Assembly: GCA_018268455.1 (NCBI GenBank)
Contig: JAFDWM010000294.1
Span: forward strand, 1-62,238
Source: Actinomycetota bacterium
GTDB lineage: Bacteria; Actinomycetota; Actinomycetes; Actinomycetales; Microbacteriaceae
Length of the DNA: 62,238 nt
Direction of reading: 5' to 3'
In this document: in pieces, positions 41,351-46,646 of the stretch
Position numbering within the stretch: the stretch's first letter is position 1
How the letters are laid out: the number at the start of each line of letters is the position of its first letter
Notes under the pieces: model-generated
The model's database searches: none
What the model was told of the DNA's origin: nothing
The model's input: the letters and a program-made list of their open reading frames with translations, nothing else
Translations under genes and position numbers: made by a program

Positions 41351-42244
41351 ATGCCCCATCTGCGCATCGCCACGGTCAACGTCAACGGGATCCGCGCCGC
41401 GGTCCGCAACGGGATGCACGGCTGGCTCGACGATGCCGGGGTGGACGTGCTCACGCTGCAGGAGGTGCGCGCGCAGGACGAGCATCTGGAGGCTGCGTTC
41501 CCCGGGTGGTCGATCCTGCACGACGAGGCCACCGCGAAGGGCCGGTCCGGCGTTGCCGTGCTCAGCCGCATCCCGGCCACTGCCTCGCGCACCGCGCTCG
41601 GTCCCGACGAATTCGATTCGAAGGGCCGCTGGCTCGAGGCGGACTTCGACCTCGGCGGGGCACCGCTCACCGTGGTCAGCGCCTATGTGCACAGCGGCGA
41701 GGCCGACACACCCAAGCAGGTCGAGAAGTGGAAGTTCCTCGATGCGATGACCACGCGCATGGGTGAACTGGGCGCCGACGGAGCCCTGGCACTCGTCACC
41801 GGCGACCTGAACGTCGGCCACCGCCCCCTCGACATCCTGAACTGGAAGGGCAACGTCAAGAAGTCCGGGTTCCTGGCGCGGGAGCGCGCCTACTTCGACC
41901 GCTTCCTCGGCGCCGCGGGGGAATCCGTGGCCGGCCAGGAGGGCATCGGCCGGGGCATGGTCGGGCAGCTCAGCGACACGCGCCCGTACGCGGCGGAGGG
42001 CGACGGCACCGGCCTCGGCTGGGTCGACGTCGGGCGGACCGCGGCCGGCGAGGTCGACGGCCCGTACACCTGGTGGACCATGCGCGGCCAGGCCTTCGAC
42101 AACGACTCGGGCTGGCGCATCGACTACCACCTCGCGACGGCACCGCTCGCCGCTCGGGCTACCAACTACCGTGTCGCCCGCGCCGCGACGTACGCCGAAC
42201 GCTGGAGCGACCACTCCCCCGTGGTCGTCGACTACACGTACTGA
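41351..42244 (+). CDS. xthA: Exodeoxyribonuclease III (AP endonuclease)
   Basis: Cuts DNA 5' of abasic sites in base-excision repair; 297 residues. EEP-fold motifs in order: RIATVNVNGIRAAV, LTLQEVRAQ (metal Glu), AYVHSGE, GDLNVGHRPLDI (catalytic Asp and Asn), GWRIDYHLATAPL, and WSDHSPVVVDYTY (catalytic His) at the very end. The last 12 codons plus the stop lie in the first copy of a 44-bp tandem duplication (42207-42294). Confidence 0.93.
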   Translation: MPHLRIATVNVNGIRAAVRNGMHGWLDDAGVDVLTLQEVRAQDEHLEAAFPGWSILHDEATAKGRSGVAVLSRIPATASRTALGPDEFDSKGRWLEADFDLGGAPLTVVSAYVHSGEADTPKQVEKWKFLDAMTTRMGELGADGALALVTGDLNVGHRPLDILNWKGNVKKSGFLARERAYFDRFLGAAGESVAGQEGIGRGMVGQLSDTRPYAAEGDGTGLGWVDVGRTAAGEVDGPYTWWTMRGQAFDNDSGWRIDYHLATAPLAARATNYRVARAATYAERWSDHSPVVVDYTY

Positions 42245-42294
42245 ATCGGGGCGACCACTCCCCCGTGGTCGTCGACTACACGTACTGAATCGGG
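42207..42294. repeat. 44-bp tandem duplication over the xthA stop codon
   Basis: Bases 42207-42250 are repeated exactly at 42251-42294, and 8 bases of a third copy follow (42295-42302). Each copy contains the hairpin CGACCAC-TCCCCC-GTGGTCG (7-bp stem: 42208-42214/42221-42227 and 42252-42258/42265-42271). Because 44 is not a multiple of 3, the second copy is read in another frame and lies after the xthA stop. Confidence 0.95.
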
Positions 42295-42307
42295 GCGACC
42301 ACGCCCG

Positions 42308-43333: not shown

Positions 43334-43399
43334 TCGACTCCCGCGGCTCGGATCGCTGCACACGCCTCGGGTGTAGGGCCCCGCGGTCGAGCTTCCCGT

Positions 43400-43470
43400 G
43401 CACGACGCAGGAGAAGCTTCAGGGAGACGCTGCTTGCGCGGTCCCTCCCACCGTTTCTCCTGCGTTGTGC
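43400..43470. repeat. Inverted repeat pair 1 of the GCACAACGCAGGA family
   Basis: GCACGACGCAGGAGAA (43400-43415) and its near-complement TTCTCCTGCGTTGTGC (43455-43470), one mismatch in 16, around a 39-nt loop. It lies in the 354-bp gap between trpS and the DUF559 gene, in which I find no gene. Confidence 0.75.
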
Positions 43471-43524
43471 TCGCACAATCGTCCAGCTGGCTCCGCGAGA
43501 GGTCCCGTCACAGCGCGTCCTCTC

Positions 43525-43588
43525 TGAGCAACGGTCGGTCTTAGCAACGGTCGGTCTGAGCAACGGTCGGTCTGAGCAACGGTCGGCG
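43525..43588. repeat. Four tandem copies of a 16-bp unit
   Basis: Unit TGAGCAACGGTCGGTC at 43525, 43541 (TTAGC variant), 43557 and 43573 (last two bases CG instead of TC). No spacers separate the copies, so it is not a CRISPR. Confidence 0.95.
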
Positions 43589-43605
43589 CAGCACGACCAA
43601 GGCGC

Positions 43606-43676
43606 GCACAACGCAGGAATCGTCGACGTTCGCCGGCCCGTCTTCTCCACAGCGCACCGCACGTCCTGCGTTGTGC
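43606..43676. repeat. Inverted repeat pair 2 of the GCACAACGCAGGA family
   Basis: GCACAACGCAGGA (43606-43618) and TCCTGCGTTGTGC (43664-43676), a perfect 13-bp inverted repeat around 45 nt, next to the 3' end of the DUF559 gene. Pairs 1 and 2 both span exactly 71 bp. Confidence 0.75.
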
Positions 43677-43687
43677 TCGCCTCGAGC

Positions 43688-44539
43688 TCAGCGGCCGCGA
43701 GCCAGCAGACCCCGAACCGCGTCGACGAGGATTTCGGGTTCGGTGAAGAGCGAGTTCGCCGTGGGACGCAGCGATGCGTAACCGCGCGCGGCCAGTGCCA
43801 AGTCCCGCATCCGGTCCGCCTCCTGCATCTCCCAACCCGAGTGGAATTCGCGGCTGTCGCATTCGACGACGATCCACCCGTCGACCACGAGGTCGACCCG
43901 CCCCACGTCATCGATCCATCTCTGAACCTCTATGCGCCTGCCGAATTGACGCAGAAGCAGACGCGCGAGCGACTCCGGCCCTGACTCCGCTCGGCCGTCG
44001 ACGAGTCTCCGAAGCCGGCGGAATCGTCGCGGCACGCGCTCGAAGATCTCCGCGAGATCGTCCCTGTCGATCACGCGCTTGAAGAGGGCGCTGTCCAACG
44101 TCGCCACGAGGTGCCGGGGTTCCTGACATGCGAACGACTGCACGAGCGCGCTGATCGGATCCACGACGAAAGCGTCACCGCGATCGCGGCGCCAGTGCAC
44201 AACGCAGTCGTCGCCGTCGACCCCACGCCGGCGTCGCCGCGAATTCGGCGACCGCAGTCGCCCGTGCGTCGGATCGACCTGCACATGCAGCTCACCACGA
44301 TGTTGCACGTACACGCCCAGGAGTTCGAGCGCAGCGACACAGTCCAGCCGGCCCCCGACCCGATGCGCGTGGAAGACCCGTTCGTCAACGGCTGCGGACA
44401 GATAGACGTCCCGCCGTGCCCGACGGAGCAGTCCGGTCGAGACCGCGAGGTCGATCTGGCGTCTGCTCATCCCCGATCCACGCAGCTCCCGGTAGCTCAC
44501 GGGTCGATCTGCGGGGAGATCTGAAGCGTCGCGACTCAT
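43688..44539 (-). CDS. DUF559/Vsr-fold nuclease-like protein with N-terminal AbiEi-like HTH region
   Basis: Function unproven; 283 residues from the chosen start. The N-terminal ~60 residues (VSYRELRGSGMSRRQIDLAV, then LLRRARRDVYLS) resemble the winged helix of AbiEi-type antitoxin domains. The C-terminal ~100 residues resemble DUF559, an endonuclease-like fold: ESLARLLLRQF, then RVDLVVDGWIVVECDSREFH, where the Asp and the Glu-x-Asp fit a PD-(D/E)xK-type site. Starts at 44659, 44650 and 44611 are possible; none has a good ribosome site, and 44539 (MSRDASDLP) matches the usual family N-terminus best. The gene is framed by repeats of one family. Confidence 0.7.
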   Translation of the reverse strand: MSRDASDLPADRPVSYRELRGSGMSRRQIDLAVSTGLLRRARRDVYLSAAVDERVFHAHRVGGRLDCVAALELLGVYVQHRGELHVQVDPTHGRLRSPNSRRRRRGVDGDDCVVHWRRDRGDAFVVDPISALVQSFACQEPRHLVATLDSALFKRVIDRDDLAEIFERVPRRFRRLRRLVDGRAESGPESLARLLLRQFGRRIEVQRWIDDVGRVDLVVDGWIVVECDSREFHSGWEMQEADRMRDLALAARGYASLRPTANSLFTEPEILVDAVRGLLARGR

Positions 44540-44681
44540 GGAGAAATCGTCGAGGACCGGCGGCGGTCGGCGGTCGGCGATCGCGTAATCGGTGCAGAAC
44601 TCGACGAGCATGCCGATTGTGGAGGAGGATGCACCAGCCCGACGTTTCATTCCTCGCACGGCCTCCGAGCCGTCCCGCGAT

Positions 44682-44751
44682 CACAACGCAGGTGATACCC
44701 CGGCATCACGGGCCTGAGCGTCAGCAGGCGGCCTGATCTCCTGCGTCATGC
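44682..44751. repeat. Inverted repeat pair 3 of the GCACAACGCAGGA family
   Basis: CACAACGCAGG (44682-44692) and CTCCTGCGTCATGC (44738-44751), imperfect inverted copies upstream of the DUF559 gene. The span, about 70 bp, equals that of pairs 1 and 2. Otherwise the 324-bp gap 44540-44863 shows only the -10 hexamer of the next gene. Confidence 0.55.
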
Positions 44752-44851
44752 CCGGAACGCAGCCACAGTCGTTCGACCGTTGGAGGGCCCTCATCCCGAT
44801 GCTGCTCCTCCCCCTCTGCGCGCCCGCACTGCGACCGCGCCGGCCGGCATC

Positions 44852-44857
44852 TAGGCT
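44852..44857 (+). promoter_or_regulatory. -10 element, leaderless GNAT gene
   Basis: TAGGCT, GGGCCG, then ATG at 44864. Confidence 0.5.
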
Positions 44858-44863
44858 GGGCCG

Positions 44864-46436: not shown

Positions 46437-46448
46437 CTGGAGAAAGAA

Positions 46449-46590
46449 GTGCTCCGGGGTCGGTGAGAATCCGAACCGGCGGTGACAGTCCGCGAACCGA
46501 GGATGCGACACGCGTCCGAGGCCGATCCGGTGGGATTCCGGAACCGACGGTGATGCGAGCGATGCTCGTGAGTCCGGATGAGAGGCAGCA
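46449..46590 (+). ncRNA. FMN riboswitch (RFN element)
   Basis: Conserved RFN blocks in order: CCGGGGTCGGTGAGAATCC (46454-46472), ACCGGCGGTGACAGTCCGCG (46475-46494), a variable arm (46501-46525), GATCCGGTGGGATTCCGGA (46524-46542), ACCGACGGTGA, and AGTCCGGATGAGAGG (46571-46585). FMN binding should lower riboflavin synthesis or translation. The stretch 46591-46646 is the expression platform; CCTGATCAGG lies just ahead of the ribD ribosome site, which suggests translational control, but the switch is not resolved. Confidence 0.93.
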
Positions 46591-46646
46591 CAGCAGATCG
46601 TCGTGCGCCCCCGGGCATCCGGTCCCCTGATCAGGATGAGGAACAC

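Follow-up and report, generated by a model that had tools for sequence, protein, structure and literature searches.

The window, i.e. the whole stretch of 62,238 nucleotides analysed here, belongs to a 3.6-Mb genome assembled in 310 contigs. Its entire trpS-GNAT interval (43334-44863, no strand assigned; gene families by Pfam) contains a cassette with one gene and three repeated elements. The gene (43688-44539, minus strand) is of the MTES_1575/DUF559 type and, as judged from the Pfam matches of its relatives and a structure model, is predicted to encode an AbiEi-like module and a Vsr/I-Bth0305I-like nuclease domain. The elements, which have no strand, each consist of two inverted 13-bp arms that extend to about 20 bp. 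Copy 1 (43400-43470; half-sites 43400-43412 and 43458-43470) lies 3' of the gene, copy 2 (43606-43676; half-sites 43606-43618 and 43664-43676) 11 bp from its stop codon and copy 3 (44681-44751; half-sites 44681-44693 and 44739-44751) 5' of it. The original prediction had described three inverted pairs around one gene, two of them 3' and one 5', and all are present. Three of its six arm positions were right and three were off by 1 to 3 bases, the arms starting at 43400/43458, 43606/43664 and 44681/44739. It had also come near with spans of 70-71 bp: all three elements span exactly 71 bp, with arm starts 58 bp apart. The exact 13-mer occurs in three of the six arms and the remaining three carry 1, 2 and 2 mismatches, copy 3 being the most diverged element. 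The interiors of the three are unrelated.

The paired arrangement in the window is beyond chance, because three inverted pairs were seen vs one in total over 40 simulated windows. The original prediction had likewise taken the equal spans as a sign of a repeated unit and not of chance. Lone 13-mers at up to two mismatches are only mildly enriched (7 in the window vs a mean of 2.3 expected; 1 of 100 shuffles reached 7). The predicted 11-base match inside the gene (44197-44207) does exist, but for this reason it carries little weight as evidence, and single arm matches (44197; G000:C298) were left out as elements. No further copies were found in the window at up to two mismatches, as had been stated. 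Elements from six sources had no match in Rfam. Other repeated or structured features of the window are a 44-bp tandem duplication at 42207-42306 (2.3 copies, 98% match), which repeats the end codons and stop of an endonuclease/exonuclease/phosphatase-family gene, a 16-bp minisatellite at 43523-43586 between element copies 1 and 2 (4 copies, unit TCTGAGCAACGGTCGG) and an FMN riboswitch at 46447-46593 (Rfam RF00050, 74.9 bits).

The protein and its family

The longest open reading frame of the gene covers 43688-44659 (323 aa). Its start is probably ATG 44539, because the starts of relatives and the low model confidence before residue 41 point to this codon. In Foldseek searches, the structure model (30 sequences; mean pLDDT 87, pTM 0.81) matched best the AbiEi antitoxin of S. 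agalactiae (PDB 6y8q, E 2.5e-5, the only match below 0.001), followed by the catalytic domain of I-Bth0305I (3r3p, E 0.0018, TM by target 0.74-0.75) and by NGO0050 (3hrl, E 0.0099). The matches to 3r3p and 3hrl predict a nuclease domain of the Vsr/EDxHD type. At E<=0.01, Pfam recognized MTES_1575 in all 30 aligned family members, DUF559 in 26 and AbiEi_4 in 18, with the window protein itself under the cut-offs. Among these matches and weaker ones we found no transposase, and neither the Pfam matches of the 30 members nor the predicted folds (AbiEi, I-Bth0305I) included a Y1/HUH transposase of the IS200/IS605 type. Five residues are invariant in the 30 proteins (E229, D256, E266, D268 and H273 in window numbering) and are candidate catalytic residues, judged by sequence conservation. 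For three of the proteins, PADLOC gave AbiEi matches that were all weak (best E 8e-5) plus a single PDC-S37 match, and NCBIfam had none. No toxin gene adjoins the window gene, which by Pfam lies between genes for a GNAT acetyltransferase and a class I tRNA synthetase (W/Y).

A search with the window protein alone gave no related loci; using the 30-member alignment, we confirmed 235 relatives, the best 80 of which form the main locus set. According to the record titles, 72 of these are from Microbacterium and the other eight from Microbacteriaceae, Actinomycetes or Leifsonia. Genes of the DUF559/MTES_1575 type are present in 133 of 149 Microbacterium genomes. At least eleven genomes (G007, G018, G019, G060, G085, G103, G104, G143, G153, G161 and G168) carry two family genes in opposite orientation, about 17-22 kb apart.

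Matched elements on both sides of the gene

Is the flanking of the gene by inverted pairs a common feature of the family? We first compared 30 loci drawn from 149 genomes. The same 10-mer pair was present on both sides in 17 of them, vs 148 of 870 cross pairings; most of the remaining 13 seemed by eye to have more diverged pairs. For the main set, which comes partly from the same genomes, we required 11-base arms and mismatch costs adding up to no more than 2. Matching inverted pairs were found on both sides of the gene at 44 of the 80 loci. The 36 loci that did not pass include two that had no usable downstream flank and hence too little DNA for the comparison. Flanks displaced outwards by 700, 1200 and 1800 bp never passed (0/75, 0/73 and 0/73), nor did any of 160 Markov-simulated flank pairs. 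When the upstream flank of one locus was paired with the downstream flank of another, only 275 of 6320 combinations passed, and thus the arms belong to the individual gene.

Beyond the genus, related genes occur in 86 of 198 genomes of the order, from which 30 loci were examined, 22 of them outside Microbacterium. Of these 22, nine passed at a cost of up to 2, and 13 at a cost of 4 with equal span. Displacement by 600 and 900 bp left 0/22 at cost 2 and, with equal span, 0/22 at cost 4; without the span condition, 3/22 passed at cost 4 after displacement by 900 bp. Arms and spans vary widely across these loci and agree within each locus. The eight Microbacterium loci in the order-wide set gave two passes, and the miss of M. 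suaedae was technical, as the region ran 120 bp past the stop. The tie between the elements and the DUF559-type gene is therefore real, and the clustering of repeats at such genes that the original prediction had raised as a question holds within the genus (44/80) and beyond it (9/22). At locus L276 the flanking elements are near inverted copies of each other and at L278 near identical copies; therefore, duplication or conversion between flanks happens.

Arms are private to each gene and diverge with the protein

Five genomes contain at least two passing loci, and in all five the arms of the paralogues differ: M. suaedae (L111, L128), PS02067 (L123, L138, L181), PS02068 (L116, L165), SCN 70-27 (L130, L136) and cf332 (L147, L173). 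PS02067 and SCN 70-27 have two arm types in common, each at genes that correspond between the two genomes. Over 44 loci, arm similarity tracks protein identity (Mantel p 0.001, rho 0.22). The share of pairs whose arms match at 11 or more of 12 positions is 4% at 40-50% protein identity (698 pairs), where the mean match was no better than that of shuffled letters, 15% at 50-60% (209 pairs), 50% at 60-70% (20 pairs), 78% at 70-85% (nine pairs) and 100% above 85% (three pairs). Split by alignment columns, rho was 0.12 for columns 1-60, 0.26 for 60-120, 0.06 for 120-170 (p 0.12) and 0.18 for the nuclease part.

Half-site spacing and hairpin formation

The spans of the upstream and downstream elements differ by 0-1 bp at 34 of 44 loci, and at the others by 2, 9, 11 (two loci), 12 (three), 22 (two) and 33 bp. 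Differences of 0-1, 10-12 or 21-23 bp account for 41 of the 44; 5000 shuffles gave 16.3 on average and never more than 25. This phasing at helical turns argues for a protein that grips both half-sites from one face of the helix. Among the matches of a covariance model (see below) that were listed, 107 places have lengths of 70 (1), 71 (67), 72 (25), 80 (1), 81 (9), 82 (3) and 94 bp (1), i.e. classes of 70-72 (93), 80-82 (13) and 94 bp (1) with none between.

Do the elements act as hairpins or as double-stranded sites? Folded as single-stranded DNA and compared with shuffles, pairs 1 and 2 of the window gave z-scores of -4.5 and -4.2, and pair 3 one of -0.66. In 31 Microbacterium elements, arm positions 14-20, which lie past the paired part, are alike in both half-sites, and arm-to-arm matches within single elements fill 101 cells there vs 102.2 expected from column composition (counting Watson-Crick pairs only). 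Positions 8 and 13 agree within elements in 29 and 28 of the 31, vs 21.8 and 20.3 expected, which fits a stem as well as two half-sites read by one protein. Four elements from outside the genus, picked by eye, fold strongly (z -11.0, -8.6, -7.3 and -6.5). After these proved to be strong hairpins, we dropped the hairpin-only reading and likewise its clean dismissal. For the Microbacterium elements, we favour half-sites on double-stranded DNA, although a hairpin may also serve as the substrate.

Copies away from the genes

Two further arm types were searched in 149 genomes by exact arms, gene-flanking copies included. The ACGACGCCAA arm pair has 24 copies in M. suaedae (G066) and none in the 148 other genomes; the CCGTTCTCAG pair has 27 copies in G168 and single copies in four of the 148 others (G019, G072, G129, G134), where, among the matches listed, no DUF559-type gene adjoins. 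Reversed-pattern controls for both arm pairs gave 0. The arm pair of the window, at up to three mismatches, occurs in five of 247 genomes of the genus and the related arm GCACAACTCAGGA in ten of 149, the source genome included in both cases. The covariance model, built from 30 elements, has matches in 171 of the 247 genomes (E<=0.001), a loose count given that 20 candidates were scored per genome, that palindromes can be counted on both strands and that the model was built partly from these genomes. One of 67 surveyed rows repeats another, which leaves 66 distinct positions. According to a crude home-made gene caller that mis-called the window gene, 61 of these are intergenic and five genic. 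The intergenic ones fall between convergent genes in 25 cases, between co-directional genes in 28 and between divergent genes in 8; some of the 66 positions flank DUF559-type genes.

Copies within one genome have arms and length in common and, by eye, no common interior except between close neighbours. As the interiors are not common among copies, no recent dispersed copying can be seen; the same interior pattern would also result from nothing more than selection on protein-binding sites. We looked in six genomes for a central motif common to the interiors. G066 gave the best score, but its set contained the same elements repeatedly via overlapping loci and we make no claim. Integron attC sites were considered as a possible identity of the elements and dropped.

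The source genome is poor in elements, with three at up to three mismatches plus the diverged copy 3. The covariance model gives 11 matches there, both strands counted, and a few weaker copies may exist; it recovers copy 1 of the window at E 7.2e-15, this copy being in its training set. The one further element (G000:C122:22025-22095) sits between FAA-hydrolase and glyoxalase-family genes (Pfam), in surroundings that look like an hpa-type operon, and a tblastn search with the window protein over the surrounding 12 kb found no DUF559-type gene (none below E 8). The site is about 170 bp long in the source genome vs 3-6 bp in six genomes picked from the matches listed, G014, G195, G094, G098, G115 and G033. 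We considered a precise insertion and rejected it: the spacer lengths in other genomes, about 10 to 280 bp among the matches listed, and the unrelated palindromes in several relatives show turnover instead. At L200, L201 and L202 (G134, G138 and G123), the same spacer is occupied by an unrelated palindrome of the GGTCGTTGAGCGAG...CTCGCTCAACGACC type, and inspection by eye showed other inverted pairs there in G192 and G010; the spacer seems to collect palindromes.

Gain and loss at the trpS-GNAT interval

The trpS genes of G134 and G138 are 91% identical to that of the window. The gene is present in G138, flanked by one element on either side; in G134, a close relative, the GNAT gene begins 10 bp past the trpS stop, with neither such a gene nor an element between. 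The empty site that had been suggested as a check was thus found, and the arrangement is not identical in all relatives. The empty site of G134 could be a loss. The boundaries do not show what moved, because they differ from the element ends and the trpS-GNAT interval exceeds the element-to-element unit. Across the 80 related loci, 45 have a trpS match. At eight (L107, L109, L110, L111, L112, L115, L118 and L146) the DUF559-type gene and trpS are separated by a GNAT match, which looks like a shift of the cassette by one gene; this GNAT gene could also be a paralogue.

Discussion

Here, we observed that many genes of the MTES_1575/DUF559 type are bracketed by inverted elements whose arms are specific to each gene. 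How does this arrangement compare with known systems? REP doublets are described as inverted conserved arms around a less conserved spacer of set length, extragenic and in tandem clusters, with each REP class beside its own enzyme gene (PMC3116915). The elements studied here share the inverted doublet with its less conserved spacer, the extragenic copies, the tandem clusters and the placement of own-class elements beside the enzyme gene (44/80 loci). However, REPIN/RAYT systems use an HUH/Y1 transposase, whereas here an AbiEi-like module is joined to a Vsr-type nuclease domain. Moreover, we saw no GTAG tag in the arms, the spacing follows the helix turn and the copies have no common interiors; movement, like self-recognition, of the element system is something that we infer. 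As the HUH enzyme was looked for and not found, the system is REPIN/RAYT-like by anatomy and not a member of that family. The proposal of a REP/RAYT-like arrangement with a different protein family agrees with the flanked gene, the private arms and the dispersed, mostly intergenic copies.

AbiEi antitoxins of type IV systems are similar in the predicted N-terminal fold (6y8q), in the AbiEi_4 match of 18 of 30 members and in having inverted repeats near the gene. AbiEi is reported to bind two 23-bp inverted repeats 3 bp apart, and the repeats of Rv2827c lie 13 bp apart within each pair (PMC7319586); these published operator spacings are one turn apart, a further likeness to our elements. In contrast to AbiE, a nuclease domain is fused here, the sites lie on both sides of the gene and dispersed, and no AbiEii-type nucleotidyltransferase toxin adjoins the window gene. 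The nearest solved nuclease domain is that of I-Bth0305I (3r3p), an EDxHD homing endonuclease of the Vsr fold, which is described as dimerizing on a target of nearly 60 bp (PMC3943268). The long dimer target is a similarity; unlike I-Bth0305I, however, the present gene is free-standing, was not seen in an intron or intein and leaves its site uninterrupted. Where tested, the system thus lacks a defining feature of AbiE toxin-antitoxin systems and of homing genes.

Could the elements simply be the operators of an AbiEi-type autorepressor, with the dispersed ones regulating other genes and the nuclease fold incidental or degenerate? AbiEi proteins are described as autoregulating by binding inverted repeats in their promoter (PMC7319586), one element lies upstream of the gene, and unrelated interiors at a fixed phase look like operators, the interiors being explained equally well. 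Yet equally matched elements also lie past the stop codon, only 8 of the 66 positions, by rough gene calls, are between divergent genes and 25 between convergent ones, where promoters are unexpected, and the five candidate catalytic residues are invariant. We therefore regard such a regulon as unlikely. The gene could also encode a free-standing homing endonuclease and spread from allele to allele at trpS through cleavage of the empty site, the elements being its target or protective relics. This would agree with the kinship of the nuclease domain to I-Bth0305I, with presence and absence at trpS between near relatives and with the GNAT gene that separates gene and trpS at eight of the 80 loci. 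Homing genes are expected to split their own target. Here, intact sites flank the gene instead, the empty site of G134, the one locus examined closely, holds no element, and the dispersed copies at unrelated loci go unexplained, which makes a homing cassette quite improbable.

There is also the simplest case to consider, namely that the elements are hairpins, terminators or REP-like DNA that lie near the genes by chance and have no tie to the nuclease. Most of them are intergenic, and as single strands two of the three window copies and the four elements picked from outside the genus fold well. Strong evidence against passive features nevertheless comes from the clean displaced controls for gene-private arms that match upstream and downstream, from the co-divergence of arms and protein and from the helical phasing, and we give this reading hardly any credence.

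On balance, we lean toward a private pair: a DNA-binding nuclease and its own bipartite site, REPIN/RAYT-like with an unrelated enzyme. By analogy, both halves of the predicted protein resemble families that bind long bipartite sites. In this private-pair model, each element would be occupied by two AbiEi-like/nuclease proteins, one per inverted half-site. In Microbacterium, both would bind from one face of the helix, and the interior would lie between their nuclease domains. The gene-flanking and the scattered intergenic copies would be the same site, in which half-sites and helical phase are kept and the interior drifts. The nuclease might then nick or cut within or beside the bound sites, and repair or gene conversion might copy, homogenize or occasionally spread them. 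We consider it very probable that the protein binds its elements; it could just as well cut at them as leave them intact, and copying of elements through the protein is a tentative, slightly doubtful step. Nicking and repair copying would explain the private arms, the co-changing flanks, the fixed phase and the drifting interiors. The nick-and-repair model does not by itself explain new sites at unrelated loci, and a nuclease gene with an intact target of its own next to it would do harm if cutting were neither rare nor controlled. The preferred model would stand even with a hairpin as the substrate.

In titles and abstract openings, with most subscription journals outside the search, we found no account of repeats flanking DUF559 genes, and we found no known job for genes of the DUF559/MTES_1575 type. 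In Microbacterium and other genera of the order, the system may represent an independently evolved counterpart of REPIN/RAYT, a proposal whose chances we see as evenly balanced: AbiEi-type nucleases would maintain private, helically phased bipartite sites that bracket the gene and populate the genome, with arms and protein co-evolving fast. A site on both sides of the gene provides a ready-made substrate for each family member, so that binding and cutting can be tested at once, and the many naturally occurring gene/site pairs would provide data on the recognition code of the AbiEi-type DNA-binding module. If the proteins also maintain the dispersed copies, a REPIN-type arrangement would have evolved at least twice, with unrelated enzymes.
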